Shown here one piece after another: positions 29,356 to 49,497 of a stretch of 59,389 bases of DNA. Under the pieces are notes generated by a model, which was given only the letters and a program-made list of their open reading frames with translations, searched no databases and was not told the DNA's origin. The position numbers and the translations under genes were made by a program. Origin of the DNA: Arcicella aurantiaca (GTDB lineage Bacteria > Bacteroidota > Bacteroidia > Cytophagales > Spirosomataceae); NCBI RefSeq assembly GCF_003148625.1, contig NZ_QGGO01000034.1, positions 1-59,389 of the forward strand, given 5' to 3'. How positions within the stretch are numbered: position 1 is the stretch's first letter; each line of letters opens with the position of its first letter.

Positions 29356-30927
29356 ATGTTAAAAAGTGCAACGCTAAATTTAGCGGAGATTTTACTTCGT
29401 AAATCAGATAGAATGTCTGATGATTCGCCCTCAGTAATTTTTGAAGAAGATATTTATACTCGAAGGCAAATTAGAAATGCAACCGAAAAGTTAGGGGCTT
29501 ATTTAGAAAGTAAGTACATTACGCCCGATGACAGAGTTATTCTGTTGTTGAATGACACGCCCTTTTTTGTTGTTGCTTTTTTAGCTGTAATTAGTGTGGG
29601 GGCAATTCCAGTACCAATTAACCCAAAAATCTCAGTTGAATCTTTAGACGCCATTTTGCAAGACTCACGACCAAGAGGAATTTTTGTTGAAGAATGCGAA
29701 TTGAAACGTTTAATTCAAGTTTCTAATTTGGAAATTTTTAAGGAAAATATCTTTGTTCAAGATAAATTTTCGAGCCAAAAAATAGAACATTCTTACAATT
29801 CTCTATTACCACATTGGGAAACTAAAAACCTTTCTGATAAATTTAACTATTATCACAAGAAACCCGAAAGTGTAGCATTTTGGCAATATACTTCTGGCAC
29901 AACGGGTTTTCCTAAAGCAGTCATGCACACACAAGAAGTGATGTTGCACAATACGGAACAGTTCGCTAAAAACACACTTCATATCAATTCTAAAGACATT
30001 ATTTTGTCTGTCCCAAAAATGTTCTTTGGATACGGTTTAGGCAATAGTTTGTTTTTCCCACTTTTAACGGGTAGTACAGTTATCTTAGAAGCAGGTTGGT
30101 TTGATGTTGAAGAATTGATTGAAAACATTGATTTCCATGCACCAACCGTACTTTTTGCAGTTCCGAAGGTTTATAGTTTGATTCTAAAAAAGGCAGATAC
30201 ACTTCGTAAAGGAGTGTTTGATTCTGTAAGATTATTTTATTCGGCGGGTTCTCATTTACCCAAAAGTTTGAATGAGCGTTGGGAAAAACATTTTGGAAAG
30301 CCCATCTTAGACGGCATTGGCTCTACCGAAATAGGTCATGTTTTTATCTCGAATAACATTGAAAATCCTTTGAAAGGAAAAACTGGTTTTCCTGTAAATG
30401 GTTATGAAGTAAAAATCTGTGATGAAAATTGTAATATCGTTAATAATCAAGAAGTTGGCGAATTATGGGTAAAACCAAATTATAAACTTTTAGGATATTG
30501 GGAAAACAATTCGGCAACTTTACAAAAATACTGCAATGGCTGGTACAAGAGTGGCGACTTATTTATGAAAAATATTGATAATTCTTTTTCTTATGTTGGT
30601 AGGGCAGACGATTTATTTAAAGTCAATGGACGATGGATTGCTCCCTTAGAAATTGAACAAGCAATCTTGACAAACTTTGAGATAATAGAAGACGCCGCTT
30701 TGATTGGTGTACAAGATGAAGATGAAAATGAAATACCAGTGATGTATTTGCAAACGGCTTTTGACGATGATACCCTCAACTCAAAAATTAATCAATATCT
30801 CGTAAATCATTTTGAAAGATATAAAATTCCTTATACGTATATACAAAAGCGTGAGTTTCCAAGAAATGAAAATGGGAAGCTTTTACGGAAAAAATTAGCC
30901 CTCAGTTACCAACAAAAAACAGCTTAA
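29356..30927 (+). CDS. Benzoate-CoA-ligase-like aryl acid activating enzyme
   Basis: I chose the ATG at 29356 (523 residues), where family similarity begins; an upstream ATG at 29251 adds 35 unlike residues. Motifs of the adenylate-forming superfamily are present: P-loop YTSGTTGFPK (178-187), GIGSTE (320-325), YKSGDLF, GRADDLFKVNGRWIAP and the C-terminal lysine in NENGKLLRK. The segment KMFFGYGLGNSLFFP is characteristic of benzoate-CoA ligases rather than fatty acyl or 4-coumarate ligases. It should activate an aromatic acid such as benzoate, hydroxybenzoate or aminobenzoate, and load CoA or the cluster ACP to prime chain synthesis. It is the first gene of the cluster. The substrate is not fixed by sequence. 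Confidence 0.88.
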   Translation: MLKSATLNLAEILLRKSDRMSDDSPSVIFEEDIYTRRQIRNATEKLGAYLESKYITPDDRVILLLNDTPFFVVAFLAVISVGAIPVPINPKISVESLDAILQDSRPRGIFVEECELKRLIQVSNLEIFKENIFVQDKFSSQKIEHSYNSLLPHWETKNLSDKFNYYHKKPESVAFWQYTSGTTGFPKAVMHTQEVMLHNTEQFAKNTLHINSKDIILSVPKMFFGYGLGNSLFFPLLTGSTVILEAGWFDVEELIENIDFHAPTVLFAVPKVYSLILKKADTLRKGVFDSVRLFYSAGSHLPKSLNERWEKHFGKPILDGIGSTEIGHVFISNNIENPLKGKTGFPVNGYEVKICDENCNIVNNQEVGELWVKPNYKLLGYWENNSATLQKYCNGWYKSGDLFMKNIDNSFSYVGRADDLFKVNGRWIAPLEIEQAILTNFEIIEDAALIGVQDEDENEIPVMYLQTAFDDDTLNSKINQYLVNHFERYKIPYTYIQKREFPRNENGKLLRKKLALSYQQKTA

Positions 30928-30947
30928 AATTTAATATCTCTAAGTCT

Positions 30948-31916
30948 ATGAAAATTATTGCCGCAGGAACTTATTTTCCAAGTTTGGAAATAAATGCCTA
31001 TGCACATTTAAGAGACAAACCATATTATTGTGAACGCCCAAAAGCTTCGGATGATGATTTGATGGTTGAAATTGCTCTGCCAGTATGTGAGCGAGTTCTG
31101 GAAGAAGGGAACACCCTTCCGAATGAATTGGACATGATACTCAGTATCTCCATTAGTCCAGACCATTTATTTAAAACAAAAGACATGGCTGCCCCTCGTT
31201 TGTGTCACCCACTTCAACGAGAATTAGGAGCAAACAATGCCTTTGTTTTTGATATTATTGATGCAGATTGGACTTCTGCTTTGGAAATTGCCGAAGGTTT
31301 TTTAGCACAATTAGATTATCAAAAGATATTGATTGTCAGAACTGAAGTAACGGCATTATCAGTATTACCAGACCCAGAATCAGGTTTTGATTTTGTAGAT
31401 GGGGTAGGAGTGCTTTTAATCGAAAAATCTTCCCATAAAATCAATACTGAATATTTGCCTTTAGCCTATGAAAATATGGGTCATGCAACTTTTACAATGC
31501 TTACGCCAGAAGAAATGTCGAGAGGAAAATTGAAAGGCTCATTTCATTTGAATTATAATCCAAATTTAGTTCAAATGTTAAATCTGCGAGCGGTTCAGTT
31601 AATAGATAAATTTATGCTTACTGAAAAAGAAGATTTTGAGCTCATCGTTGAGTCATGGTTGCCCAAACATGGCGAAAGTCTTAATCGTTGGAAACACCTT
31701 TATCAAAATTTAGGAGCATTTACATTGCCCGCTTTTATCGAAGAAAAACTCAGACAGAGCCGAAGTTTAGGAATTAGTGACGTATCAGAAGAATTAATAT
31801 TATCGGTAACGCTCAACCCCTTCACGATGCGATATGGAGGACAAATACTCCGAATAGCTCCCGTTTTGGCAACTTCGGAATTAGTAACCATGTCTCCAGA
31901 ATCTATTTTTTGTTAA
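30948..31916 (+). CDS. KAS III-like protein lacking the catalytic Cys and His
   Basis: The 322-residue protein has the thiolase-fold layout of KAS III, with DMILSISISPDH and FVFDIIDADWTSALEIAEGFL. At the position of the active-site Cys (normally A-C-S/T-G) it has D107 (DADWTS). The C-terminal half lacks the HQP and GN-S motifs that carry His and Asn. It therefore cannot act as a normal condensing enzyme. It lies four bases before a second KAS III-like gene, so a non-catalytic partner of a heterodimer or an acyltransferase-like role is plausible. Family assignment comes from the N-terminal pattern and context. Confidence 0.75.
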   Translation: MKIIAAGTYFPSLEINAYAHLRDKPYYCERPKASDDDLMVEIALPVCERVLEEGNTLPNELDMILSISISPDHLFKTKDMAAPRLCHPLQRELGANNAFVFDIIDADWTSALEIAEGFLAQLDYQKILIVRTEVTALSVLPDPESGFDFVDGVGVLLIEKSSHKINTEYLPLAYENMGHATFTMLTPEEMSRGKLKGSFHLNYNPNLVQMLNLRAVQLIDKFMLTEKEDFELIVESWLPKHGESLNRWKHLYQNLGAFTLPAFIEEKLRQSRSLGISDVSEELILSVTLNPFTMRYGGQILRIAPVLATSELVTMSPESIFC

Positions 31917-31920
31917 AAAT

Positions 31921-32958
31921 ATGCAACACATTTCAATCAAGAGTTTATCAACTGCCATGCCTCAAAATCATGTCAGTAATGAAGTTCCCCCGTATAGTTT
32001 ACTACCCAATTTACCCCCCAATTGGTGGCGTTTTTGGGGAATCAAAGGGCGTTATTTAATCAACCGAGATGCAGGAGAAACCGCAGAATCTTTGGCAGTC
32101 AGAGCCTGTCATAGTGCTATCAAAAATAGTGGATTAGCTCCCGAAGAAATAGATTTAATCATTTGTAATAGCACCTGTTTTGTAGGTTGGGGTGAAGAAA
32201 GAAACAAAGCTTTTCCACGCTTGGCAGATAGAATGAGTAAAGTTTTGGGTTGTACAAAAGCACTCACAATGGACATTGAACAGGAATGTATTACGTTTTT
32301 GATTGCGATGCAAATTGCCAGTAATTATATCAGTACGGGAAAATATAAAAACGTTTTGGTATGCTCGGCTGAATATATCTCTGGCGTATTGGACTTCTCG
32401 GATAAATCGTGTAGTACATTTGGCGACGGAGCAGCGGCGGCAATTTTGAGTCATGAACAAGATAATGGGACGCTTCTTGCATCTGCTTATAGTAGCAATG
32501 CTGATTTTTATGAGTTGGCAACCGTAAAATGGCAATTCCCAGAAAATAAGGCTAATCCAGAACCGAAAGACTATTGGTCATACTTTACACTCGACAGTAA
32601 TGCACCTGCTGAAATGCAAAAATTCGTTCCAACAGGCGTACCAACCATTGTAAATAAAGCCTTAAAGAAAACCCATTTGAATGTTGCAGATATAGATTTT
32701 TTCGTATTTCATCAACCTTCAAAAATATTAGTAAATCTTTGGGCAAATGGTTTAGACATCGACGAAGACAAATTTTTGCTTACCCTTGAAGATTACGGTT
32801 GTATGGTGTCGGTATCAATGCCTGTGACATTGGCAGAATCCATCAAGCAAAATAAAATAAAATCAGGAGATAAAATAGTTATCGCAGGAGCAGCCACAGG
32901 TTGGGGGTTTGGCGCTCAAGTGTGGCAAATCGGCAATGTTTGTGTGGCAGAAGCCTAA
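31921..32958 (+). CDS. KAS III-like synthase or acyltransferase with altered triad
   Basis: The 345-residue protein keeps C123 (MDIEQECITFLIAM) and H264 (FFVFHQPSK). At the catalytic Asn position (normally GN-x-S) it reads YGCMVSVSMP, giving C294. The GDGAAAAIL and GAATGWGFGAQVW motifs are typical of KAS III. It may form a pair with the preceding Cys-less homologue. It could condense an aryl- or acyl-CoA with malonyl-ACP, or act as an acyltransferase making a C-O or C-C bond, as some altered-triad KAS III enzymes do. It resembles but is not clearly DarB, the dialkylresorcinol synthase. Confidence 0.8.
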   Translation: MQHISIKSLSTAMPQNHVSNEVPPYSLLPNLPPNWWRFWGIKGRYLINRDAGETAESLAVRACHSAIKNSGLAPEEIDLIICNSTCFVGWGEERNKAFPRLADRMSKVLGCTKALTMDIEQECITFLIAMQIASNYISTGKYKNVLVCSAEYISGVLDFSDKSCSTFGDGAAAAILSHEQDNGTLLASAYSSNADFYELATVKWQFPENKANPEPKDYWSYFTLDSNAPAEMQKFVPTGVPTIVNKALKKTHLNVADIDFFVFHQPSKILVNLWANGLDIDEDKFLLTLEDYGCMVSVSMPVTLAESIKQNKIKSGDKIVIAGAATGWGFGAQVWQIGNVCVAEA

Positions 32959-33093: not shown

Positions 33094-33138
33094 AACTTCC
33101 CGAAATAACTCCGTTAGGGGTTAAACTTTCGGGAAGTT
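33094..33138. repeat. Hairpin A: AACTTCCCGAAA / TTTCGGGAAGTT
   Basis: Perfect 12-bp arms at 33094-33105 and 33127-33138 enclose 21 bases. The same arms recur, lengthened, in hairpin B 90 bases downstream. Confidence 0.7.
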
Positions 33139-33226
33139 GAGCCAAATTATTAAATTTTACTTCTAATAAGTACAGTGTTTAATAAATTTTCTAAATAATT
33201 TTTATCCTAAAATCTTTGATTGTGGG

Positions 33227-33259
33227 AACTTCCCGAAAGTTTTAAACTTTCGGGAAGTT
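33227..33259. repeat. Hairpin B: 16-bp perfect palindrome upstream of the ACP gene
   Basis: AACTTCCCGAAAGTTT (33227-33242) and its exact complement (33244-33259) are separated by one base. It lies 90 bases before the ACP ATG. It could be an operator for a dimeric regulator or an mRNA stem; the repeat with hairpin A suggests paired binding sites or a small repeat family. Confidence 0.7.
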
Positions 33260-33348
33260 GAAATAACTTATTAAACAGTGTATTTAAACTCCTAAAACTG
33301 TTCAAAAATCATATAAATAAATTCAATAATAATCTAAACAAAATTAAC

Positions 33349-33615
33349 ATGGAAACGTCAGAAAAATTTGACCTTATTTTCTCAGAAGTAGCAGAAATGC
33401 TTTCAGAAGTGGCAGAATGCCCTGTAAGTGATGTAAAAATAGACAGCGACTTGCCAAACGAATTGGGCATTAACTCGTTGATGGGCTTAGAAATTTTAGT
33501 AATGATTGAACGCAAGTACAAGGTAAAATTGAAAGAGGAAGATTTAGTAAAAATGACTACTCCACGCATCATGGTCGAGATGTTATTACCTCATGTACAA
33601 GTAGCCGTTGCATAA
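33349..33615 (+). CDS. Acyl carrier protein of the biosynthetic cluster
   Basis: The 88-residue protein has the four-helix ACP pattern. The attachment serine is S43 in ELGINSLMGLEI, where the usual DSL motif reads NSL. The chain is acidic with the conserved LGINS-LEI spacing. It should carry the growing chain after modification by the phosphopantetheinyl transferase at the end of the operon. It is the only carrier protein in the cluster that I can see. The Asp-to-Asn change next to the serine may tune partner choice. Confidence 0.92.
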   Translation: METSEKFDLIFSEVAEMLSEVAECPVSDVKIDSDLPNELGINSLMGLEILVMIERKYKVKLKEEDLVKMTTPRIMVEMLLPHVQVAVA

Positions 33616-33845
33616 TGAAACGTAATAAAACTATCGCAACTATTATGTTTGTGGTGGCAATGATTTTCTTTCATTATCATTCAACAGGACATTATTTGTG
33701 GGCTTTATTGGGTATCAAAACGCCTTATCCATTAGACCCCGTAGAAGGTTGGTGGGCTTTTTTGAAAGGCGTTTTGCCAGTAGTAGCCTTATGGATTATC
33801 TTTTTTGCAGGGGTTATTTCCAAAAACAAAAAAACGATACTTTAA
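33615..33845 (+). CDS. Small membrane protein, two transmembrane segments
   Basis: The 76-residue protein starts one base inside the ACP stop (TAATG), indicating translational coupling. It has a hydrophobic helix at residues about 8-28 and another at about 48-68, with PYPLDPVEGWWAF between them and a basic C-terminus. I recognise no family. Its position between ACP and the oxidoreductases suggests a membrane-anchoring or assembly role for the synthase. Confidence 0.65.
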   Translation: MKRNKTIATIMFVVAMIFFHYHSTGHYLWALLGIKTPYPLDPVEGWWAFLKGVLPVVALWIIFFAGVISKNKKTIL

Positions 33846-33846
33846 T

Positions 33847-34257
33847 ATGACTTTTCCCCCAAGTTTTCAAGTTTTCATCTGGGTAATGATGGGAGCTTTA
33901 GGAGTAAGTTGTTCGGTGATTTTTTCTTTTATTTCTTGGAATTGGTTACAGTCAGGACAAACAAAAACAGGCTCAGAACCACGTTCAAACTTTACATTTT
34001 TGGGCTATGCCTTCCTTTTTGCCAGTGGTCTGATGTGCTGTGGTATTGCTGGCCCTCCGGGTTATGCCCTCAGCGACGACCCAAATTTGGTGAATAAAGT
34101 TTGGATATTGCGTGCTTCGGGACTTTCATTGGTATTGTCATTAATTGCTTGGATTTGTATCCTGATTGGTCAGCGAATTTCAATGAAAAGAAATAATCAA
34201 AATGCCCAAAGAATTGAACAATTAGAAAAAAGTATTCAAGAACTTCAAAACGTATGA
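33847..34257 (+). CDS. Small membrane protein with C-terminal coiled coil
   Basis: I start at the ATG at 33847, just after the previous stop; an ATG at 33805 inside that gene is less likely. The 136-residue protein has hydrophobic segments near residues 6-30, 53-72 and 88-112. A charged helix follows (RNNQNAQRIEQLEKSIQELQ) likely to form a coiled coil. No family recognised. It probably works with the preceding small protein at the inner membrane. Confidence 0.65.
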   Translation: MTFPPSFQVFIWVMMGALGVSCSVIFSFISWNWLQSGQTKTGSEPRSNFTFLGYAFLFASGLMCCGIAGPPGYALSDDPNLVNKVWILRASGLSLVLSLIAWICILIGQRISMKRNNQNAQRIEQLEKSIQELQNV

Positions 34258-34261
34258 TTCA

Positions 34262-35755
34262 ATGAAAATAGTTGAAGTTGATGAGTTAATAATAGGGGCG
34301 GGCTTGGCTGGACTAACATTTGGTAATACTTCAATTTCTGATGATTATTCTGTGGCAATTGCTGAAATGCACTTTAAAGCAGGAGGTTATGCTACCAATT
34401 TTAGAAGAATCAAAAACACCGTAGCCTTTGATTGTAGCCAACACAAAATTACGGGTTTGGGCGAAAACGGAAATCTCAGAAATGCCTTACAAAGAGCTGG
34501 ATTGTGGGATAAACTACAATTTAGATATTTTGACGAATTGACGACGGTTTGCATAAAAGGTCAGAAAATTGATTTACCAGCAGATTCAGCAGGAATCAAA
34601 GCAACACTTTTGAGGTATTTTCCAAGTCAAAAAGAAGGTATTGAAAAGCTTTTTGAGGATATTCAAACACATGGTTATCAAAATTATATGTTTGCCAGAA
34701 TGTTATTAGGTGAGTACGAAATAAATCGCTACTTATTGACCGATGGCAGAAAATTATCGAACATAACTACTCGTGAGTATTTCAATCGTTTGTTCAATGA
34801 CCCAATCATTATTGAGGTCATGAGTTCGATAGCCATTTATTTAGGAGCAGTTGCTCACGAAGCCAACGCATTTTATTTTTTGCATTATCTCTATGCGGCT
34901 TTTGAAACTAAAGCTGGATATGTTGAAGGTACTTCACAGGTATTGGCGGATACTTTAGCAAATGCCTTTAAAGAAAGAGGCGGGCAGATATTTTACAGAA
35001 ATCCCATTTTGAGTATTGATGTAAAAGGCGATAGAATTATGGCGGTTAATGCACAAAAATGTACATTTTTAACGCATAAAATTGTGGCTACTTGTTCGCC
35101 CCATATCCTAATGAAAATGTTACCCCAAGACTGTATTCCTGATTCTTTTCAAGAAAGCTTAGATAATCTAAAAATTGGTTGGGGACATATCAGTGTGTAT
35201 TTGATTTTAGACCAAGCTCCTGAACTATTGGGTCTTGATAAATCAGAATATCTTTTGGTTAATCATTTGGGCGATAACCTCAATGAAAAACAATTGAATG
35301 ATGATACTCGCTATCAGCAATTTACGTTGAGTGTCACCAATTATCACTTATTAGATGCTCAAAGCGGTTTTGCGGTTCAATTAACCATTCTTGACCATAA
35401 AGGTCAATGGTTTGACCTCGACAAAGATGCTTATTTGATTGAAAAAAAACGCATAGAAAACCTTTTGATTGAAAGAGCTTTAAACACATTTCCTGACATG
35501 GAAGGGCATATTGTTTTCAAAGAAACGTCAACGCCCCGAACCAATTTTAGATACACAAATTCGCCTGAAGGTTCAGCTTTTGGATACAAGGTTTTACCTC
35601 GTGAAAATACCCGTTTCTTATATAATCCGCCCATTCAAGGATTAAAATTTGTGGGCGGTTGGAGTACAGGCCCGGGTTACGAAACCAGTATGTGCTTAGG
35701 CTTTACGCACGCCATGTTGGAAAAACGAAAGCGTGTAGAAGAGCTTGTTGTATAA
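34262..35755 (+). CDS. CrtI/CrtISO-like FAD-dependent oxidoreductase
   Basis: The 497-residue protein has an N-terminal dinucleotide-binding motif (LIIGAGLAGLTFG) and the GGYATNFRR segment of phytoene desaturase/retinol saturase relatives. The C-terminal FAD-binding motif is KFVGGWSTGPGYETSMCLGF. There is no carotenoid pathway in the window. In this setting it could desaturate or isomerise a polyene chain, or introduce double bonds into the acyl product. CrtI-like enzymes also occur in ladderane-type lipid clusters, so a lipid product is an alternative to a pigment. Confidence 0.82.
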   Translation: MKIVEVDELIIGAGLAGLTFGNTSISDDYSVAIAEMHFKAGGYATNFRRIKNTVAFDCSQHKITGLGENGNLRNALQRAGLWDKLQFRYFDELTTVCIKGQKIDLPADSAGIKATLLRYFPSQKEGIEKLFEDIQTHGYQNYMFARMLLGEYEINRYLLTDGRKLSNITTREYFNRLFNDPIIIEVMSSIAIYLGAVAHEANAFYFLHYLYAAFETKAGYVEGTSQVLADTLANAFKERGGQIFYRNPILSIDVKGDRIMAVNAQKCTFLTHKIVATCSPHILMKMLPQDCIPDSFQESLDNLKIGWGHISVYLILDQAPELLGLDKSEYLLVNHLGDNLNEKQLNDDTRYQQFTLSVTNYHLLDAQSGFAVQLTILDHKGQWFDLDKDAYLIEKKRIENLLIERALNTFPDMEGHIVFKETSTPRTNFRYTNSPEGSAFGYKVLPRENTRFLYNPPIQGLKFVGGWSTGPGYETSMCLGFTHAMLEKRKRVEELVV

Positions 35756-35809
35756 TAAATTGACATTTCAAAGACTTACATTTTACCGTTAAACTATTCT
35801 AAATCAATT

Positions 35810-36817
35810 ATGATACAGGAAAAAGAACTTAGTGAAAAATTCACTAAACTTTTACAAAAACTAAACGATGCTTCAGACAAAAAACAAATGTCTATGCTAC
35901 TCGACCATCCTTGGCATTCTCCAAATGAAGGTATTTGGTTGAAAAAAAGAGAAAACTTATCTATCTACGGAACAGAGTTTTACGACTATGCAACTGAAGA
36001 AGAACGCCAACGTTTATCCATTATGGAGACTGCTACTTGGTGGCATACCTTTGTGGTATTTGAAAACTTGGTGACAGAATATTATCTAAAAATTATCAAT
36101 CATGAAAGTTTAAAGGCATTTCCAGAGGTAGTTAGATATATGCACCACTTTTGTAGAGAAGAAGTTACGCATGCTTTGGTGTTCAGAAAAGCGATGAAGC
36201 ATTTTAATATTCCTCCATTTCCTGTACCCGACAATCTCAAGGATTTCTATAAAGACAATGCTTCAATTATTGAGTTTCCATTAAAAGCTATTTTCTTAAC
36301 TATTTTGATGGAATGGTTTGCTGAAAACAATGCCATGCTCGACTGCAACAATGATTTTGTGTCGCCTTTGTCTCGTGCTATTGCCGTAGAACATCATAAA
36401 GAAGAGGCTCGCCATATTGAATGGGGCAAATTAATGATGCGAGAATTTATTGAAGTAGTACCAGACTTTTTAGATGATGCTCGTGAATATACCGCTCCAT
36501 TTATGCGTAATTTATTGGATATGGCAACCTGTAATCCTGAAACTTATGACAGAGTTGGTTTTACTCACCCTGCCTTTCAAGATTATGAAAGATTATTTGA
36601 AACTGTTTTATTCTCTGAAAATAGAAAGCAAATCAACCGTAAAATCATGGAACCACTGATTCGCTTTTTCATTGAAATAGAGGTTTATACACCTGATTAT
36701 CATGAGATTTGGGAGGCAGCCAGATTCGGAGAAGATATTGAATTTGTGCTTGAAAAAGAAAGAAGAAAAATTGTAGAAAACGATAACCTTTTAGAAATTC
36801 CAATTAGTCATGTCTGA
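35810..36817 (+). CDS. AurF-family diiron oxygenase (candidate arylamine N-oxygenase)
   Basis: The 335-residue helical protein shows the metal-ligand pattern of AurF-type enzymes. A Glu lies in the first helix (FENLVTE, E85 or E90), E118-x2-H121 in REEVTHAL, a Glu in MEWFAE (E168 or E172), and H195-x3-E199-x2-H202 in EHHKEEARHIEW. AurF converts p-aminobenzoate to p-nitrobenzoate, and the related CmlI acts on an arylamine. With an aryl-CoA ligase in the same cluster, N-oxygenation of an aminoaryl starter is the simplest proposal. Other C-H or N oxidations are possible. It overlaps the next gene by eight bases. Confidence 0.85.
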   Translation: MIQEKELSEKFTKLLQKLNDASDKKQMSMLLDHPWHSPNEGIWLKKRENLSIYGTEFYDYATEEERQRLSIMETATWWHTFVVFENLVTEYYLKIINHESLKAFPEVVRYMHHFCREEVTHALVFRKAMKHFNIPPFPVPDNLKDFYKDNASIIEFPLKAIFLTILMEWFAENNAMLDCNNDFVSPLSRAIAVEHHKEEARHIEWGKLMMREFIEVVPDFLDDAREYTAPFMRNLLDMATCNPETYDRVGFTHPAFQDYERLFETVLFSENRKQINRKIMEPLIRFFIEIEVYTPDYHEIWEAARFGEDIEFVLEKERRKIVENDNLLEIPISHV

Positions 36818-37163
36818 AATCACAGAAATTGAAAAACCTTCGGAAATACTCAAAACCGTTGATGAAGTGATTGCTTCAATGCAGTACCGTTTCCACCCTG
36901 AAAATTGCACAAATCTAAAAGCAATTTATCAGTGGCAATTAAAAAATCCTGACCGTAATTTTTATATTTCCATAGATTGTGGAACGTTCCAGATTACAGA
37001 AGGGGAACATCCTTCTCCGAATGTAACCGTAGAAACAGATACAGAAGTTTATTTAAAATTAGTGAATGGGCAAATGAAAGATGTCATTGCGGTAGTTACT
37101 GGAAAATTAAGAGTGAGAGGAAGTATTAGCACTGCTCAAAAACTAAATAGAATTTTTATCTAA
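36810..37163 (+). CDS. SCP2 sterol-binding-domain protein
   Basis: The 117-residue protein is essentially one SCP2 domain (FHPENCTNLKAIYQWQLK, PNVTVETDTEVYLKLVNGQM, GKLRVRGSISTAQKL). These domains bind hydrophobic ligands such as acyl-CoA or lipids. It overlaps the AurF-like gene by eight bases and abuts the following KAS III gene. It may shuttle a hydrophobic intermediate between the soluble and membrane steps. A stand-alone SCP2 is unusual in aryl polyene clusters. Confidence 0.88.
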   Translation: MSEITEIEKPSEILKTVDEVIASMQYRFHPENCTNLKAIYQWQLKNPDRNFYISIDCGTFQITEGEHPSPNVTVETDTEVYLKLVNGQMKDVIAVVTGKLRVRGSISTAQKLNRIFI

Positions 37164-40211: not shown

Positions 40212-40218
40212 AAATACG

Positions 40219-42230: not shown

Positions 42231-42234
42231 AATC

Positions 42235-43323
42235 ATGATTAATAATTTCAAAGGGGCAATTACTTCTATTGGCTTTAATTCGGTTTGTGGTACAGGGCAA
42301 AATGCCTATTACGAACTCGTACATACTTTACCGTCAGAAAAAAAAATATCAACCTACGACCCCGAAGGCTTTTTGGGAACAAAAGGTATTAGATTTTTGA
42401 ATAATGCAACCTTAATGTACTGCAACTTAGCTTTTCAGTGTATTAGTAATAGAAATTTAGGTGCTAAAATAATAGCAGAAGCAGATAAAATTGGGCTTTA
42501 TGATGGTTCAGATTTATCCAATATTGAAGATGGTTTTATCTTTGATTTAACGGCTAAAATGGATGGGCCAGCTCTGGTGAGTCCTATGTCTGCCCCTAAT
42601 ACGATTGCCAATGCGTCGTCGAGTATGATGGCAATAAAATCAACTATTAAAGGACCAAACTTTACGGTTTGTGGTGGAGCTTGCGGGAGTTTACAAGCCT
42701 TAGACATTGCACTTTTACATTTGTCTGAAAACATGATTGATTGTGCAATCGTGGGTTCTACCGAAATAACTTCTCGTTATCATCAGGCAGTTCGTCAAGG
42801 GGAACTTCGTGGAGAAGCCCAAGAGCAAGATGCTCCAGAAATGGGAATAGCCTTTTCGATAGAATCCTTAGAAAATGCTCAAAAACAAGGAACGGAGATT
42901 TTAGGAACAATTTTAGGAGTACATTCTGGACAAAAACTTAGAAAAGAAACCTCAGAAGGGCTTTTAATCAGACTTTGTTCTCAACTTCTTAAACAGACAG
43001 ATTTATCAAGTGAACAACTCGATGGACTTATTTTATCTGCGGGTAGTCATTGTATTGATGAAGTTATTTTCAAAAAACAAGTCAATGAAAAAATCAATCC
43101 TGATTTAGCTATTATTTATCCAGAATCAGTACATGGGTATGGCGATAATGCAGGAGGTTTTGCGGGAATGTTGTTTGGTATTGGACTTTTCAATCAAAAA
43201 ATTAAAAACAACTTACCTTCATTACGCATTGACGGAACTCCGAAGGAAAGCTATAAACATTTAATTATTGCTACCATCGACCGCACAGGTTATGGTATCG
43301 TTACTCTTCTAAAAAAAGCATGA
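42235..43323 (+). CDS. Chain-length-factor-like ketosynthase homologue
   Basis: I start at the ATG at 42235 (362 residues), just after the KS stop. The thiolase fold is recognisable (GPNFTVCGGACGSLQALDIAL) and retains a Cys (C150). The HGTGT motif is missing (SAGSH instead), and the KSxxGH motif reads ESVHGYGDNAGG, replacing both Lys and the second His. It thus cannot decarboxylate or condense normally and fits a chain-length factor that shapes product length. It overlaps the dehydratase gene by four bases. Confidence 0.82.
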   Translation: MINNFKGAITSIGFNSVCGTGQNAYYELVHTLPSEKKISTYDPEGFLGTKGIRFLNNATLMYCNLAFQCISNRNLGAKIIAEADKIGLYDGSDLSNIEDGFIFDLTAKMDGPALVSPMSAPNTIANASSSMMAIKSTIKGPNFTVCGGACGSLQALDIALLHLSENMIDCAIVGSTEITSRYHQAVRQGELRGEAQEQDAPEMGIAFSIESLENAQKQGTEILGTILGVHSGQKLRKETSEGLLIRLCSQLLKQTDLSSEQLDGLILSAGSHCIDEVIFKKQVNEKINPDLAIIYPESVHGYGDNAGGFAGMLFGIGLFNQKIKNNLPSLRIDGTPKESYKHLIIATIDRTGYGIVTLLKKA

Positions 43324-43811
43324 ATCCATTATTAAATAATTATCAAATCCAACAATTATTACCTCATCGTTATCCGATTCAATTGGTTGACCAAGTGATT
43401 GAATTTGAGGAAAATAAAGAAATAATTGCCTTAAAAGCAATCGGTATTGGTGAACCTGCTTTAAGAGGACATTTCCCTAATTTCCCTATCATGCCGGGGG
43501 TTTTATTGGTTGAAGCATTAGGACAAACTTGTGCTTTATTATTAGAACTAACTCGCCGACAATGGAAGGTTGGCGATGATTTTAATGTTTCTGATGAGCA
43601 ATCTTTAGGCGTATTAGGTGGCGTAAAAGTTAAGATGTTAAAACCCGTTCTTCCGGGTACTCTTGTAAAACTAAAAGCAACGCTTGACTGGAGTAAAGGG
43701 CCAGCATCATCGCTAAATGTAGTTGCTTATGATGCTATCAACGAAAAAAAAATATTCGTAAGAGGGTCAATTTTAGTAGCAATGGCTCCAAAATCAAGTT
43801 TGTCAAGTTAA
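43320..43811 (+). CDS. FabZ-type 3-hydroxyacyl-ACP dehydratase
   Basis: The 163-residue hot-dog protein has LPHRYPIQLVD and the catalytic residues H51 (RGHFPNFPIMPG) and E65 (LVEALGQT). With the ketoreductase and no enoyl reductase in the cluster, each cycle would leave a trans double bond, giving a conjugated polyene. This absence of an enoyl reductase is seen directly and is important for product prediction. Confidence 0.92.
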   Translation: MNPLLNNYQIQQLLPHRYPIQLVDQVIEFEENKEIIALKAIGIGEPALRGHFPNFPIMPGVLLVEALGQTCALLLELTRRQWKVGDDFNVSDEQSLGVLGGVKVKMLKPVLPGTLVKLKATLDWSKGPASSLNVVAYDAINEKKIFVRGSILVAMAPKSSLSS

Positions 43812-43894: not shown

Positions 43895-46249
43895 ATGAAA
43901 ATTAATTTTGACGAATTTTACTCCCGTTATGCCGAATGGGTTATAAAATGGCGTAAATCAATTGTTTATGGATTTTTAGCACTAACGTTAGTCATGGCGG
44001 CAGGGGCAAGATTTATGACAATTGATGGCGATATGCTTCTGTATTTTAGCAAAAATATGCCGCAGCGTTTGGCATTAGATAAAATCCATGATGATTATGA
44101 ACGTACCGACAATGTGGTAGTGGCAATTGCCCCGACTAATAAAAATGTTTTTACGTCGCAAACGCTTTCTGTACTTGAAAAAATGACCAACGAACTTTGG
44201 AAAACGCCTTTTGTTTCCAGAGTTGACGGCATTACCAATTTTCAACATACGCAGGTTCATCATGATGATTTGACGGTGAAAAACTTGGTTGAAGATGCCA
44301 AAACCAAAACGCCAAATGAAATCAAAAAGATTAGGAATATTGCCTTGACTGACCCCGATTTGGTAAATCGACTCATTTCGCCTTCGGGGCATACTACGGG
44401 TATTTATTTGACCATTAAATTTCCTAAAAAAGACTTCATCAGCGAAGGACCAAAAGTTGTCAAGTTTTTGAGAGATTTAAAGAAAAAATACGAAAGTCCA
44501 GACTTGAAAATATACTTAACAGGTACTGTTTTCGTGGATAATGCCTTTGCAGAAGCAGGACAAAAAGACATGACCACCCTTATTCCAATCATGTATGGTA
44601 TAATGGTACTGATGTTAGCTTTTTTCTTTCGTTCAACCGTTGGTATAATTGCTTCTGTATTTATTACACTCATTTCTGTGGGTGTTTCTTTGGGTGTTTT
44701 TGGGTATTTTGGTATTCCGATGAACCCCGTTACTACGGCTGCCCCAACCATGATAATTACCGTCGTGATTGCAGACGGCATTCACTTTTTTATCACGGTG
44801 GCACAATTAATCAGCGAAGGGCTAAGCAAACAGGAGGCAATAAAACGAAGTATTCAGATGAATTTCAAGCCTTTTTTATTAACGGGCGTTACTAATATTT
44901 TAGGGTATTTGAGTTTAAATTTTTCAGACTCTCCGCCTTTTAGTGAATTAGGAAATTTAGTAGCTATCGGAATGTTTACGGGTTGGATGCTATCAATTAT
45001 TTGGTTGCCCGCACTCATTGCCATGATGCCCATCAAAATCAAAAACTTCAAAATGGAACGTGAGTATAATTTTGAAGGATTCGGAAAATTTGTCGTTAAA
45101 CATTTCAAAGCAGTCATTGTAGTTTTTATTGTGGCTACGCTTGGTTTAGCTCCTTTTATCTACAAAAATATCATCAATGATATGTTCTTAAATTTCTTTG
45201 ATGAAGACTTAGAAATCAGAAAAGACACCGAATTTGTCGTGGATAATCTTACAGGGCTGTATTCCATTGAATATTCTTTGGGTGCAAACGGAGCCGATAA
45301 TATCGCTGACCCTGTGTATTTAAAGAAAATGGAAGAGTTTGAGCGTTGGTTTCAAAAACAAGACAAAGTGGTTCATGTGAGTTCATTTACTTCTGTTATG
45401 AGACGACTCAATAAAATCATGCACAACAATGATGACAATTATAATAAAATACCTGAAGATAAAGCTCTGGCGTCTCAATATTTACTGATGTACGAAATGT
45501 CATTGCCTTATGGACGTGACTTGAATAATCAGATTAATATCGACAAATCTGCCACACGTTTTAGGGTTGTCTTTAAAAATTTGTACACCGCCGACCTCAA
45601 ACGTATAGAGGAAGCCGCAAACAATTGGCTGAAGAAAAATGCCCCCGTTTCTATGTATTCCAATGGTACAAGTACCTCCATTATGTTTAGATATTTATCC
45701 GAAAAAAATATTGATAATATGCTTTATGGATATGGGTCGGCTTTGGCAATTATTGCGATTGTGATGATTTTAGCCATTAAATCAATCAAATTTGGCTTAA
45801 TCAGTCTTATTCCTAATATTTTACCAACGGTTTTTGCCTTTGGACTTTGGGGAATTTTTGTTGGCGAAGTTGGACTGGCTGTTGCTTTTGTAACGTCTTT
45901 TTCTTCTGGAATTGTCGTTGATGATTCTGTTCATTTTTTTGTCAAATACTTACGAGCAAGGCGGACTTTAGGCTATTCGCCAGCACAGTCTATTATTTAT
46001 ACTTTCAAAACGGTAGGTTCGTCGATGTTGGTATCAACGTTAATTTTGGCGGTTGGTTTTTCGGTATTAATATTTTCGCCGTTTCAGTCAAACGCCAGCA
46101 TGGGCATTTTGTGTTCATTGACTATATTCATCGCCCTAATTTCCGATTTTTTCTTAACGCCAGCTCTATTAATGGCATTTGACAGAGGTTCTTTTAAAAA
46201 GATAGAAGCTGAAGAAAATGACATAGCGTACAGTCCAAACTTGGTATAA
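43895..46249 (+). CDS. MMPL/RND-family exporter
   Basis: The 784-residue protein has the RND layout: one N-terminal helix, a large periplasmic loop (residues about 45-210), five or six helices (about 215-400), a second loop and a second set of helices (about 610-770). The MMPL/RND patterns PTMIITVVIADGIHFF and GIVVDDSVHFFVKYLRA mark the equivalent helices in the two halves. Relatives export pigments and lipids in aryl polyene and flexirubin clusters. It probably moves the finished lipid-like product from the inner membrane. Confidence 0.9.
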   Translation: MKINFDEFYSRYAEWVIKWRKSIVYGFLALTLVMAAGARFMTIDGDMLLYFSKNMPQRLALDKIHDDYERTDNVVVAIAPTNKNVFTSQTLSVLEKMTNELWKTPFVSRVDGITNFQHTQVHHDDLTVKNLVEDAKTKTPNEIKKIRNIALTDPDLVNRLISPSGHTTGIYLTIKFPKKDFISEGPKVVKFLRDLKKKYESPDLKIYLTGTVFVDNAFAEAGQKDMTTLIPIMYGIMVLMLAFFFRSTVGIIASVFITLISVGVSLGVFGYFGIPMNPVTTAAPTMIITVVIADGIHFFITVAQLISEGLSKQEAIKRSIQMNFKPFLLTGVTNILGYLSLNFSDSPPFSELGNLVAIGMFTGWMLSIIWLPALIAMMPIKIKNFKMEREYNFEGFGKFVVKHFKAVIVVFIVATLGLAPFIYKNIINDMFLNFFDEDLEIRKDTEFVVDNLTGLYSIEYSLGANGADNIADPVYLKKMEEFERWFQKQDKVVHVSSFTSVMRRLNKIMHNNDDNYNKIPEDKALASQYLLMYEMSLPYGRDLNNQINIDKSATRFRVVFKNLYTADLKRIEEAANNWLKKNAPVSMYSNGTSTSIMFRYLSEKNIDNMLYGYGSALAIIAIVMILAIKSIKFGLISLIPNILPTVFAFGLWGIFVGEVGLAVAFVTSFSSGIVVDDSVHFFVKYLRARRTLGYSPAQSIIYTFKTVGSSMLVSTLILAVGFSVLIFSPFQSNASMGILCSLTIFIALISDFFLTPALLMAFDRGSFKKIEAEENDIAYSPNLV

Positions 46250-46271
46250 TACCTTATTACTAAAACTAAAA

Positions 46272-47051
46272 ATGATGAAAAATATAATTTACATAAGCCT
46301 TTTCTGCCTGATTTCTATGGGTATTTACGCACAAAATGATGCACAGAAAGGATATGAAATAGCCAAAAAAACGCAAGAAAATATGAGTGGCTATAAAAAA
46401 TATTATGCAGAAATGGATATGGTTTTGACCAAAGAAAACGGTAAATCGTTTCAGCGAAAAGTAAAAACGTACCATTTGGAGCAACCAAATTTTAGTGAAA
46501 AAACGATAAATATTTTTGATGAACCCGCAGACGTGAAGGGTACAAAAATGTTTTCGCAACCCGATGAAAAAAATACGGTTGATGACCAATGGCTTTTTTT
46601 GCCCGCCCTCAGCAAAACCAAAAGAATAGCCAATGAAAACAAATCAGGGCCTTTTATGGGAAGTGAATTAGCATTTGAAGATTTGGGAAGCAATAAGTTA
46701 ACAAAATTTACTTACCAATTTGGAGGCACAAAAATAAGAAACGGACGTGAATGCTTAATTCTACTCATGTTTCCCGTAAGTAAATACAGTGGCTATCATC
46801 ATGTAGAATCTTGGATTGATAAAGAAAGAATGCTTCCGATATATTCAAGGTATTTTGATAAAAGAAATGAACTGGTTAAGGTTTTAGAAGAAGAACTTAG
46901 AGATTTTGGAAAATTTAGTTTGCCTTCAAAAATGAAAGTTCATAATGAAAAAACAGGTAGAGAAACCGTTATCGTTTGGAAAAATTTTAATTTCAACGTC
47001 AATATCGATGAAAAATTTTTCAATGCAAATGTCTTTGAAACCATGAATTGA
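46272..47051 (+). CDS. LolA-like outer-membrane lipoprotein-sorting-type protein
   Basis: The 259-residue protein has a signal peptide (IIYISLFCLISMGIYAQ) and a LolA-like fold: DEPADVKGTKMFSQP, QWLFLPALSKTKRIA, FMGSELAFEDL and ESWIDKERMLPIY. Proteins of this type accompany MMPL exporters in aryl polyene clusters and are thought to carry lipid products across the periplasm. It starts 23 bases after the exporter stop. Confidence 0.88.
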   Translation: MMKNIIYISLFCLISMGIYAQNDAQKGYEIAKKTQENMSGYKKYYAEMDMVLTKENGKSFQRKVKTYHLEQPNFSEKTINIFDEPADVKGTKMFSQPDEKNTVDDQWLFLPALSKTKRIANENKSGPFMGSELAFEDLGSNKLTKFTYQFGGTKIRNGRECLILLMFPVSKYSGYHHVESWIDKERMLPIYSRYFDKRNELVKVLEEELRDFGKFSLPSKMKVHNEKTGRETVIVWKNFNFNVNIDEKFFNANVFETMN

Positions 47052-47096
47052 CAAGCTGTTGATTACTTATTTGACTTCAACCTTAAAAATGAAAAA

Positions 47097-48341
47097 ATGA
47101 AATTCAAAATTGTTTTGTTATTTGTCGGAATTACCCTTCATTTTTTAGCAAAAGCACAGACTGATACATTACAAGTTGATACAACCGAAGCAAAATCTCC
47201 TAAATTGCTGCATCATTTACAAGGAAATATCGGACTTGAAGCAACGTATTTTTATGATTCTCCTTTTCTCCCTTCGCAAGAATCGGGACAGGTTTCTTTA
47301 TTGGTAAATTTGAATTATCAAGCTTGGACAAAAAATCAAAGATTAAAACTTATTATTAAACCTTATTTACGGATTACAGCCTTTGATAAAAGTCGTTCGC
47401 ATATTGATTTACGAGAAGGGTATTTGTTATATTCTGCCAAAAGTTGGGACGCAAAAATGGGCTTTCAGAACATTTCATCTGGTTTTGCACAAGGTTTTTC
47501 GGTAATGAATGTTATCAATCAAACCGATGATTTAGAAGTCCCTTGGTCGCCTGTTGCATTAGGGCAACCCATGATTAATCTTGGTTATCTAAAGAAAAAC
47601 TTTGCTTTCAGAGCAATGGCAATGCCTTTTTTTAGGGTCAAAAAATTGCCTGATTTTGATAGCAGACTCAATATTTACCCATTGCCCATTAATACTCAAA
47701 ATGCTAAAATTGAATCTAATAATGTGAGTTGGGCGATAAAATTATCCGATAAATTTTTAGCTGATAAATTAGAAACCGAAGTAATATATTTTGAGGGTTT
47801 ATCCAATACGCCATATATTATTCCAACGCCAGATTTTAGCTCTCTCAATCTCAATTATTTGAGAATGAATTATTTAGGATTATCTTCTCAATATGTTTGG
47901 AAGAGTTTGGTAGTAAAAGGAGAATACGCATATCGCCGACAAAATAACCAAGAATATTGGGGTGGAATGGTTGGTTTTGAGTATCCTTTTGCCAATATTG
48001 GAGGTTCGGCAATAGAAATGAATCTATTTGCAGAATATTTTTATGATGCTTGGCGAGATAAAAATCATTTTCCGTTTTCAAAAATAGCCCTTTTGGGAAA
48101 TCGGGTAGATTTTGGAGATATTCAAAGCACCACTTTGTATATGAAAATGTTACTTTTACCTACCGAAAATACTTTTAATCGTCTTTTTGTCAATTTAGAA
48201 ATTTCTCGTCGAATGATGAATCATTGGGAAACTAAGATTTCGTGGGTTTCTTATATCGGGCAGGCTATTCCCAAAACCGAGCCGCTAACCGTAATGCAAC
48301 ACGTTAATAATGTAACTATTTCGCTTAACCGTTTTTTTTAA
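47097..48341 (+). CDS. Outer-membrane beta-barrel protein of the export unit
   Basis: The 414-residue protein has a signal peptide (MKFKIVLLFVGITLHFLAKAQ), alternating strands throughout and a terminal Phe (ISLNRFF), as in barrels inserted by the BAM complex. I do not recognise a named family with certainty; DUF1302-type barrels occur next to MMPL and LolA-like genes in other phyla. It probably forms the outer-membrane exit or docking site for the exported product. Confidence 0.7.
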   Translation: MKFKIVLLFVGITLHFLAKAQTDTLQVDTTEAKSPKLLHHLQGNIGLEATYFYDSPFLPSQESGQVSLLVNLNYQAWTKNQRLKLIIKPYLRITAFDKSRSHIDLREGYLLYSAKSWDAKMGFQNISSGFAQGFSVMNVINQTDDLEVPWSPVALGQPMINLGYLKKNFAFRAMAMPFFRVKKLPDFDSRLNIYPLPINTQNAKIESNNVSWAIKLSDKFLADKLETEVIYFEGLSNTPYIIPTPDFSSLNLNYLRMNYLGLSSQYVWKSLVVKGEYAYRRQNNQEYWGGMVGFEYPFANIGGSAIEMNLFAEYFYDAWRDKNHFPFSKIALLGNRVDFGDIQSTTLYMKMLLLPTENTFNRLFVNLEISRRMMNHWETKISWVSYIGQAIPKTEPLTVMQHVNNVTISLNRFF

Positions 48342-48865
48342 TGAAAATTTCATCCTGTTCCATTCCTAACAAATCATTACTTTTAAAGGTATTTCCCAAA
48401 ATTGATTATGCTGATTCTTACAGCGTGAACTTACCTGATTCTTTAAAAATTAATGCTCGTGATGCTACCCGAACTTTCTTTGAATGTTCGCCCGACTGGG
48501 TAATATATTTAATGAAGCTAAGGGATAAATTAGTGGGAATAGTGGGTTTAAAAACGCATAAAAACCCGACTGAAAAACCAGATTTCAAGAAAGTGCAATT
48601 TGAAGTGGGAGAAAAATATGGACTTTTTGAAATTACCAATCATGTTGATGGCGAAATAATAATGGGGGCAGATGATAAACATCTCAATTTCAGAGTATCA
48701 ATAATGATTAATGAAAATTCCAATTTGTCACAGCAATTAATTGTGTCAACTGCCGTAGTGATTCATAATAAATTTGGAACAGGCTATTTTAAAATTATTG
48801 CTCCATTTCATCAAATTGTTGTAAAAAGTTTTATTAAAAAAATGGCAATTCTTCTCATAAAATGA
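48341..48865 (+). CDS. DUF2867-family protein
   Basis: The 174-residue protein matches DUF2867 in its features: DYADSYSVNLPDSL near the start, PDWVIYLMKLRDKLVGIVGLK in the middle and MGADDKHLNFRVSIMI near the end. The function is unknown; the family recurs in lipid and flexirubin-like neighbourhoods. Its start overlaps the previous stop by one base (TAATG) and its end overlaps the phosphopantetheinyl transferase by four bases. Confidence 0.78.
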   Translation: MKISSCSIPNKSLLLKVFPKIDYADSYSVNLPDSLKINARDATRTFFECSPDWVIYLMKLRDKLVGIVGLKTHKNPTEKPDFKKVQFEVGEKYGLFEITNHVDGEIIMGADDKHLNFRVSIMINENSNLSQQLIVSTAVVIHNKFGTGYFKIIAPFHQIVVKSFIKKMAILLIK

Positions 48866-49497
48866 TTTGGATAAAATTTCTTCATTTTTCAGCTATTGAT
48901 GACATTATTTTAGGGCATTTTTTAGAAATACTACCTCCGAAAATACAAAAACATATTTTACAAAAAAAACGCCCAGATGACCAAAAAAGGAGTCTTCTGG
49001 GTATATTTTTGGTAAAAAACTTTTTAGCAGAACACTGTTTGCCCTTTTCTCTTTTGTTTGAAATTCAGTTTGAAAATTTTGTAAAACCTGCTTTTCAAAC
49101 GATTCAATTAGATTTTAACATAAGTCATACCAACGAATATGTTGTTGCGGCATTCTCATTTCAACATAAAATTGGTATTGATATTGAGCAAGTTCGTACA
49201 GTTAAAGGTTGGGACGATTGTACATATTTGAATGATAATGACCTTAAAAAACTACAAATAGCGATTTCTCCTTCTTCAACTTTTTTAGAAATATGGTGTC
49301 AGAAAGAAGCCGTTTTAAAAGCTTGTGGTTGTGGGTTTGCAGTGCCGATTAGTGAGGTTGAAATAATGAATGATTTTGCGATGCTGAATGGACAAAAATG
49401 GTACTTACACGTTTTTCATCTAAAAGACAATTTAAGCGTTATTGCCTCCAACAAGCCAAATGCTATCATACAAATAGAAGAATACAAAATACCGTAA
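48862..49497 (+). CDS. 4'-phosphopantetheinyl transferase (Sfp type)
   Basis: The 211-residue protein has the family motifs FNISHTNEYV, the magnesium-binding GIDIE (D107, E109) and WCQKEAVLKACGCGF (E149, K153). It should convert the cluster's apo-ACP to the holo form by transferring phosphopantetheine from CoA to S43. It is the last gene of the operon. A dedicated transferase supports a self-contained, transferable pathway. Confidence 0.92.
   Translation: MIWIKFLHFSAIDDIILGHFLEILPPKIQKHILQKKRPDDQKRSLLGIFLVKNFLAEHCLPFSLLFEIQFENFVKPAFQTIQLDFNISHTNEYVVAAFSFQHKIGIDIEQVRTVKGWDDCTYLNDNDLKKLQIAISPSSTFLEIWCQKEAVLKACGCGFAVPISEVEIMNDFAMLNGQKWYLHVFHLKDNLSVIASNKPNAIIQIEEYKIP

Follow-up and report, generated by a model that had tools for sequence, protein, structure and literature searches.

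A pqs-type gene cluster with its own type II polyketide synthase in Arcicella aurantiaca, a candidate locus for 2-polyenyl-4(1H)-quinolones

Background

Clusters of the pqs type, which specify 2-alkyl-4(1H)-quinolones, have been reported from Pseudomonas, Pseudoalteromonas, Burkholderia and Chitinivorax (PMC12012761), and alkylquinolones as compounds also from Alteromonas and Arthrobacter (PMC7731028). Mass spectrometry has detected quinolones with polyunsaturated side chains in Pseudomonas aeruginosa (PMC7731028), so that unsaturation as such is not new. Here we describe a cluster of 21 genes at positions 29356–49497 of a 59,389-nucleotide contig of Arcicella aurantiaca (NZ_QGGO01000034.1), the whole of which is called the window. 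As a preliminary description of this DNA had supposed, the cluster is apparently uncharacterised: no title or abstract opening in the open-licence literature searched speaks of a polyene quinolone or of a type II polyketide synthase (PKS) within a pqs cluster. We consider it quite probable that this is a pqs-type 2-alkyl-4(1H)-quinolone cluster which draws its acyl donor from its own type II PKS, and that its product would be a 2-polyenyl-4(1H)-quinolone or the N-oxide of such a compound. From homology, conserved residues and synteny in four genomes we infer the reactions, the order of the steps, the product and the role of a trio of CrtD-like, AurF-like and SCP2 genes. The other three genomes, which carry hybrid clusters of the same kind, are those of Hymenobacter rubripertinctus, a member of the Polyangiaceae represented by a metagenome-assembled genome (MAG), and Photobacterium sp. 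GJ3.

The Pqs-type proteins

The Pqs-type genes stand in the order A-B-C...D-E-L; like all 21 genes, which the list of open reading frames (ORFs) and the Pfam scan bear out, they lie on the + strand. A benzoate-CoA ligase, three 3-ketoacyl-ACP synthase III (KAS III) enzymes, a hydrolase and a monooxygenase had been noted earlier; the kinds of gene were right, and what was missed is their identity as relatives of PqsA, B, C, D, E and L. Compared with the annotated PqsA to PqsE of P. aeruginosa the window proteins are 35, 28, 40, 56 and 29% identical, and in every case the namesake is the best match.

The ligase gene (29356–30927) begins at an internal, in-frame ATG of the listed ORF 29251–30927, and Pfam finds an AMP-binding domain in its product. 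With a query trimmed to roughly the region that the PqsA chain of the PDB covers, PqsA (5oe3) ranks first [224.6 bits], followed by benzoate-CoA ligase [202.3 bits] and 4wv3 [153.8 bits], which is listed as an anthranilate-CoA ligase and which we take to be AuaEII. In the alignment its pocket motifs (PKMFFGYG.GNSLFFP, SAGS and GHVF) are those of PqsA and not of benzoate-CoA ligase.

For the remaining proteins the best PDB match stands well above the next family. The first KAS III (30948–31916), which has no Pfam match, is most similar to PqsB [5dwz_B, 97.8 bits; next 35.1], the second (31921–32958) to PqsC [298 bits; next 113], and the third (37164–38159) to PqsD [367 bits; next 217]. The metallo-beta-lactamase-fold protein (38183–39064, listed ORF start 38132) matches PqsE [125 bits; next 41] and is a putative 2-aminobenzoylacetyl-CoA thioesterase. 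A housekeeping B3 beta-lactamase was rejected for this gene, since the corresponding model gave 60 bits against a cutoff of 240. The flavin adenine dinucleotide (FAD) monooxygenase (39048–40211; FAD_binding_3) matches 2x3n/6fho, 6sw1 and 6sw2 at 245–248 bits [next 65]. These chains are listed in the PDB as “probable FAD-dependent monooxygenase”; 6SW1 and 6SW2 are PqsL, and 2X3N was their search model (PMC7248105). The match list for the flavoenzyme contains no chain named PqsH, and PqsL and PqsH are not separable by that search.

Five sequences (P. aeruginosa, Photobacterium, window, Hymenobacter and Polyangiaceae) were compared at positions which we take to be catalytic or metal-binding. Cys129 and His269 of PqsC, Cys113, His258 and Asn288 of PqsD (our counting), and all seven PqsE positions examined (69, 71, 73, 74, 159, 178 and 221) are invariant in 5/5. 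As read from the alignment, the PqsB-like protein has no cysteine at the place of the KAS III active site, and its gene adjoins that of the PqsC-like protein with its Cys129 and His269, a pair as in the pqs and hmq clusters. Thus the PqsA ligase, the Cys-His-Asn of PqsD, the PqsE ligands and the PqsB plus PqsC pair that mark pqs/hmq clusters are all found here by sequence.

Searches of plasmid records placed three relatives on top. Among the best 12 of 407 matches to PqsD these were P. aeruginosa (55.5%), the Photobacterium cluster (53.5%) and Burkholderia stagnalis (49.1%), the next standing at 38.7%; among the best 15 of 188 matches to PqsC the same three gave 40.3, 39.8 and 39.4%, the next 30.1%. 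In a tree with nine KAS III paralogues from the same and related genomes (one split gene of ten being omitted), the PqsD rows cluster together (100/100) to the exclusion of the paralogues, and so do the PqsC rows; a long-branch warning concerned two of the paralogues and the PqsC group. Ordinary fatty acid synthesis was rejected on the strength of this separation.

Based upon the identity of the A, B, C, D, E and L proteins, the aromatic acid is most likely anthranilate. It had been proposed that such an acid primes an aryl polyene; given the pqsA–E and L set, it would most likely be the head of a quinolone, joined by PqsBC, and not a starter.

Polyketide synthase, export genes and proposed pathway

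A complete iterative type II PKS, with ketoreductase (KR) and dehydratase (DH) as its only processing enzymes, had been recognised before and is confirmed by Pfam and NCBIfam. It consists of an acyl carrier protein (ACP; 33349–33615) [PF00550, 46 bits], a KR (40195–40959) [PF13561, PF00106], a ketosynthase (KS; 40986–42230) [PF00109/PF02801], a degenerate KS resembling a chain-length factor (CLF; 42211–43323) [PF00109, 26 bits] and a FabZ-like DH (43320–43811), FabA-like in Pfam [PF07977, 61.5 bits]. The KR also matches a Pfam entry named enoyl-ACP reductase, but its best NCBIfam models are 3-oxoacyl-ACP reductases, one of them above its cutoff [NF009466, FabG, 251 bits; cutoff 222], so that we saw no gene for an enoyl reductase as such. 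The best PDB match of the KS is 9s5h_B [349 bits], then 6kxd, “Ketosynthase” [272 bits], and its predicted structure has a confidence score (pLDDT) of 34. The DH scores 110.2 and 105.3 bits with FabZ models, under their cutoffs of 155 and 113. Pfam likewise upholds the lipid-export genes and the 4'-phosphopantetheinyl transferase (PPTase) noted earlier: an MMPL/HAE3 exporter (43895–46249) [PF03176, 124 bits], a LolA-like carrier (46272–47051) [PF17131, 162 bits] and the PPTase (48862–49497) [PF01648, 41 bits]. The gene after lolA (47097–48341) specifies a probable outer-membrane protein which has no Pfam or NCBIfam match and a 30% match after LolA in Hymenobacter.

In the pathway that we propose, the PqsA-like ligase would form anthraniloyl-CoA, to which the PqsD-like enzyme would add a malonyl unit; the PqsE-like protein would then release 2-aminobenzoylacetate (2-ABA), which the PqsL-like enzyme could N-hydroxylate to its hydroxylamino form (2-HABA). 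The ACP, presumably loaded by the PPTase, together with KS, CLF, KR and DH would give a conjugated polyenoyl-ACP. The PqsB/PqsC pair would join the polyenoyl group and 2-ABA or 2-HABA, the product being a 2-polyenyl-4(1H)-quinolone or N-oxide. The trio might oxidise this lipophilic product or a precursor of it, with SCP2 presenting the substrate to the diiron enzyme, and MMPL, LolA and the probable outer-membrane protein would transport the product to the outer membrane. Given both a PqsL-like enzyme and an AurF-like protein, an N-oxidised ring is plausible.

Related clusters in other genomes

The cluster is not a chance assembly: of the adjacent pairs formed by families in common, the other three loci retain 15/15, 12/15 and 12/12, whereas shuffled gene orders retain 0.92–0.94 on average. 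In Hymenobacter rubripertinctus all 16 compared families stand in window order. Two small membrane-protein genes and a DUF2867 gene occur at other places within that cluster, which is followed by an outer-membrane gene and, on the other strand, a PPTase-like gene (26%). Upstream of the Hymenobacter cluster (2755–4349 of the locus) lie genes for a Crp-type regulator binding cyclic nucleotides (cNMP) and for a type II thioesterase [PF00975], not found in the window cluster. The Crp-type gene of the window has no match at 1e-3 in the Hymenobacter locus.

The Photobacterium cluster, which came from the plasmid collection, is part of a 1.69 Mb replicon whose record calls it a plasmid. It is contiguous (A-B-C-ACP-CrtD-AurF-SCP2-D-E-KR-KS-CLF-DH) with a flavodoxin gene ahead, and its Pqs proteins share 45, 37, 57, 60 and 40% identity with PqsA to PqsE of P. 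aeruginosa. Its flavin monooxygenase is not of the PqsL kind, giving 64 bits with PRK07045, the top model of the window enzyme, versus 243 with PRK06753. Downstream, on the other strand (33823–37776 of the locus), are ATP-grasp and FAD-NAD(P)-binding genes; the gene between them looks transporter-like by eye, and this is possibly another small biosynthetic operon.

The gene orders bear on whether the locus makes two independent products, the pqs genes giving an ordinary short-chain alkylquinolone and the PKS a polyene of its own. The pqs operon of P. aeruginosa does run without a PKS, PqsBC joining the acyl group of an acyl-ACP to 2-ABA or 2-HABA (PMC12012761). Here, however, the two sets are interleaved: the window, Hymenobacter and Photobacterium all have ACP-CrtD-AurF-SCP2, in that order, after C and before D, and apart from one gap of 390 bases the gaps in the window are small. 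We therefore regard two separate products as very improbable.

The Polyangiaceae order is A, ACP, CrtD, AurF, SCP2, D, E, L, KR, KS, CLF, DH, HmqG homologue, B, C, MMPL, LolA. A divergent gene beside the ligase specifies an anthranilate synthase [TIGR01815, 1068 bits; cutoff 739] and lies next to a DUF2867 gene; this enzyme is one of five chorismate-binding proteins of that genome. The ligase is followed by a flavin reductase, which fits the requirement of PqsL for reduced flavin (PMC7248105). After the DH comes a protein of 717 residues with 39% identity over 701 residues to the protein at the HmqG position of B. stagnalis. The latter is “hypothetical” in its record and shares a methyltransferase domain with the Polyangiaceae homologue; HmqG methylates at the 2-ABA/2-HABA stage (PMC12012761). 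Among the ligases compared, that of the Polyangiaceae is nearest to HmqA (35%), and the ligase may have been exchanged in Polyangiaceae or in the other clusters.

The AurF-like protein and its neighbours

AurF-family, CrtI-like and SCP2 genes had been reported in the cluster and are indeed present: a CrtD/CrtI-like flavoprotein (34262–35755) with a CrtI-type NAD_binding_8 domain, an AurF-family diiron protein (35810–36817) [PF11583, 75.5 bits; cutoff 29.6] and an SCP2 lipid-binding protein (36810–37163) [PF02036, 52 bits]. They stand side by side in 4/4 loci. The first is 42–62% identical to its counterparts in the other three loci and gives 94 bits with the NCBIfam CrtD model, far under the cutoff of 549.7. 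The AurF gene overlaps the SCP2 gene by 8 bases, an arrangement that would suit the transfer of a lipophilic substrate by SCP2; UbiJ of ubiquinone synthesis offers a parallel to such a role.

Both EX28-37[DE]EXXH motifs of the AurF-like protein are present in 4/4 loci, as are the candidate metal ligands E85, E118, H121, E168, H195, E199 and H202, recognised by motif spacing and not by structure. The set includes a histidine four residues before the glutamate of the second motif, and this histidine, the seventh ligand, is described as characteristic of diiron N-oxygenases of the AurF fold (PMC13061610).

One version of the proposal, which does not exclude the polyenyl-quinolone pathway and is a variant of it, makes the AurF-like protein the N-oxygenase, forming a hydroxylamine, N-oxide or nitroso group, and lets the PqsL-like enzyme hydroxylate carbon as does PqsH; the product would still be a polyenyl quinolone. 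The N-oxygenase-type ligand set suits this, as do the failure of the PDB search to part PqsL from PqsH and the occurrence of the AurF-like protein in 4/4 loci against 3/4 for the PqsL-like enzyme. Against it, the flavoenzyme matches PqsL at 248 bits versus 65 for the other listed monooxygenases, and similarity to the characterised AurF and CmlI is too weak for the PDB sequence search. On balance it seems to us a doubtful version, deserving some consideration.

The same ligand set might speak for an aryl-primed polyene, in which aminobenzoyl-CoA is the starter for KS/CLF/KR/DH and AurF oxidises the amine, as in azoxymycin, to give an aminophenyl or nitrophenyl polyene acid. Azoxymycins do employ an AurF relative, AzoC (PMC6783550), and the KR and DH of the cluster could reduce a 2-aminobenzoylacetyl thioester. 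PqsB, PqsC and PqsE would however be superfluous, yet they occur in 4/4 loci, the residues of PqsC and PqsE that were examined being unchanged, and one copy has a homologue of the quinolone methyltransferase HmqG, which, like PqsBC and PqsE, an aryl polyene does not need. We think this route unlikely and prefer the polyenyl quinolone.

Several observations weigh against the polyenyl-quinolone pathway. The product is a predicted one, and the role given to AurF, CrtD and SCP2 is putative. The AurF-like profile found no match among PDB sequences at E ≤ 0.001; the structure prediction for this protein was poor (pLDDT 57), and Foldseek with the model gave no match at E ≤ 0.001, the top one being AurF itself [2jcd, E 0.21]. 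The full-length ligase ranks benzoate-CoA ligase first, at 251 versus 224 bits for PqsA, perhaps because the PqsA chain in the PDB is truncated, and the PqsE-like protein is just 28–29% identical to P. aeruginosa PqsE. The conjugation and length of the polyene are predicted from the missing enoyl reductase, an activity that a housekeeping enzyme could supply in trans. Among the relatives, the Polyangiaceae ligase (5887–7464 of a locus taken from a MAG) is without the PqsA pocket motifs; the 41 kb of Photobacterium examined contain no PqsL-like gene and no MMPL or LolA match, and the CLF match there covers just 147 residues. Finally, the Pfam scan found no anthranilate synthase among the cluster ORFs of the window. 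Three chorismate-binding enzymes are specified elsewhere in the genome, and phnAB is not required, Burkholderia and Chitinivorax being without it (PMC12012761).

Distribution

In 72,556 plasmid records the AurF-like protein has matches in four records in all, the best being the Photobacterium cluster (39.9%) and the next 25.6%. For the CrtD-like protein the Photobacterium cluster again leads the best 12 of 23 matches (42.6%, then 27.5%), with another Photobacterium record among the remainder, and SCP2 is matched in that cluster's record alone. Fourteen short loci with distant AurF relatives were scanned with the window proteins; 13 of them gave the AurF match, and the one other match was a weak one to the ligase, in a single locus.

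At E ≤ 0.001 an AurF-like protein occurs in 1/198 genomes of the class, that of A. aurantiaca, and in 2/291 of the order, the second being a weak 19-bit fragment with two stops. Strong matches (E ≤ 1e-40, four-row profile) were found in 1/120 genomes of the genus Hymenobacter, 1/329 of the phylum of the Polyangiaceae genome and 1/395 of the window phylum, each being the seed genome, and the PqsE-like protein at 1e-25 in 1/291 genomes of the order; for the PqsE-like scan and two of these three AurF scans the first 5–7 candidates per genome were scored where more existed. In the order of the Polyangiaceae genome 12/144 genomes have an AurF-like protein at 1e-10, strong in the seed alone (612 bits; others 44–69). 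The scan of named genomes started from exact peptide patterns of a single protein, a search that reaches close relatives alone; its two further loci are therefore a lower bound.

Organization of the cluster and other pigment genes

The genome of A. aurantiaca is 5.93 Mb in 70 contigs, the cluster lying on contig C34. Neighbouring genes overlap or lie fewer than 60 bases apart, with two exceptions: a 390-base gap separates the PqsC-like gene from that of the ACP, and one of 83 bases lies ahead of MMPL. The guanine plus cytosine content of the cluster (35.8%) is similar to that of its flanks (33.4% and 35.9%). Behind the ACP gene lie two genes for what are probably small membrane proteins: 33615–33845, with a 49% match in the Hymenobacter locus and no NCBIfam match, and 33805–34257, with a 47% match there and neither a Pfam nor an NCBIfam match. 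A DUF2867 gene (48341–48865) [PF11066, 110 bits] precedes the PPTase; the family is also present in the Hymenobacter locus and, beside the anthranilate synthase, in that of the Polyangiaceae. The neighbouring Crp, TetR and helix-turn-helix (HTH) genes of the window gave no match in the Hymenobacter or Polyangiaceae loci in the scan with window proteins.

The 390-base gap contains palindromic repeat copies (33094–33259, no strand), namely a palindrome with perfect 16-base arms at 33227–33259 and a partial copy at 33094–33138. With up to three mismatches the pattern has 36 matches per strand genome-wide, mostly at the same places, and the reversed control has none. It looks like a repetitive extragenic palindromic (REP) or miniature inverted-repeat (MITE) type of element.

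As had been observed, no tyrosine ammonia-lyase (TAL) occurs among the cluster proteins scanned with Pfam and NCBIfam, nor is there a dialkylresorcinol pair, the DarB models giving 30.8 and 46.9 bits against a cutoff of 550. A flexirubin-type cluster lies elsewhere in the genome (contig C16, 63307–72100), with a FlxA TAL [822 bits; cutoff 700], FlxB [378 bits; cutoff 340], KS genes and a PPTase-like gene; its ketosynthases are just 28 and 30% identical to the window KS. A flexirubin identity for the window cluster was rejected, there being no TAL or Dar pair here and a flexirubin-type set on C16. Copies of the palindrome of the pqsC–ACP gap are found near that set (C16:74687 and C16:78893). 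About 18 kb from it a very long open frame of 1861 amino acids with a KS domain (C16, 89866 to about 95427) probably specifies a type I PKS or a synthase of the polyunsaturated fatty acid (PUFA) type. A cispentacin-type cluster (AmcF, AmcE, AmcB) was rejected for the window, all matches falling under their cutoffs.

Evolution of the pqs, hmq and hybrid clusters

Six sequences per protein were compared, from the four hybrids, P. aeruginosa and B. stagnalis; the record of the last names no hmq genes, and HmqA–G were assigned here by gene order and domains. The tree of B, C, D and E together (1225 columns) separates P. aeruginosa and Photobacterium from ((Burkholderia, Polyangiaceae), (window, Hymenobacter)); support is 100/100 at this main split, and the pairing of Burkholderia with Polyangiaceae has 96.8/96. 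The pqs operon of P. aeruginosa and the hmq operon of Burkholderia thus each group with a different hybrid, and a tree that keeps all four hybrids separate from these two operons was rejected [approximately unbiased (AU) test, p = 0.00013; LG+F+G4].

Single-gene trees of B, C and D have the same shape, that of C being weak for Burkholderia–Polyangiaceae (12.8/54), and in the PqsE tree the window protein stands beside Burkholderia with weak support (27.6/60). A rooted PqsD tree gives 92/92 for P. aeruginosa with Photobacterium and 89/90 for Polyangiaceae with Burkholderia; the joint PqsC and PqsD tree leaves the latter pair without resolution.

We offer tentatively, at somewhat less than even confidence, the suggestion that a polyenyl-quinolone pathway, seen in Bacteroidota, Myxococcota and Gammaproteobacteria, is the older, and that pqs and hmq were separately reduced, losing the polyene synthase and taking their acyl chains from fatty acid metabolism, with the help of HmqF in Burkholderia. 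Either the hybrid gene set is old and disappeared on two occasions, or the polyketide/trio block was passed from one pqs operon to another and came to sit at identical positions; the former is simpler, though with six sequences the choice is tentative.

Comparison with known systems

The cluster extends the pqs gene set to Bacteroidota, Myxococcota and Photobacterium, and makes the origin of the pqs and hmq operons a testable question. It would join quinolone signals and antibiotics with outer-membrane polyene pigments, which are usually treated apart, and predicts both a new class of compounds, polyene-tailed quinolones, and a new context for a diiron enzyme of the AurF type.

KS, CLF-like protein, KR, DH, ACP, PPTase, MMPL and LolA are common to the aryl polyene and flexirubin clusters and to that of the window, which differs in that no TAL was seen and no match reaches the level of DarB. 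With azoxymycin (AzoC) and aureothin (AurF) it would share a product derived from an aromatic amine and an AurF-family diiron enzyme; the part of the azoxymycin source consulted mentions no Pqs set (PMC6783550), and in the PDB search the window protein is too distant from AurF to give a match. An anthranilate-CoA ligase and a quinolone product would be shared with the aurachins of Stigmatella, whose presumed ligase, 4wv3, is a weaker match than PqsA (153.8 versus 224.6 bits) and which carry isoprenyl tails and are made in a different way (PMC12012761).

Burkholderia hmqABCDEFG has the A–E set in common, and its HmqG has a homologue in the Polyangiaceae copy. HmqF (AMP-binding, acyl-CoA dehydrogenase and PP-binding domains) tailors the unsaturated acyl chain, whereas the window has discrete KS, CLF, KR, DH and ACP in its place. 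HmqF and HmqG are named in PMC12838280 in the reverse of PMC12012761 and PMC5476693, and the domains of the B. stagnalis proteins agree with the latter two. A PqsL gene inside the cluster recalls Chitinivorax, the sole such report in the part of PMC12012761 consulted. The closest likeness is to pqsABCDE-phnAB and pqsL of P. aeruginosa, with the same A-B-C-D-E order and families, a PqsL-like enzyme and, beside the Polyangiaceae copy, an anthranilate synthase. Compared with that operon the window cluster is without phnAB and adds a type II PKS, the CrtD-like/AurF-like/SCP2 trio and the MMPL and LolA genes.

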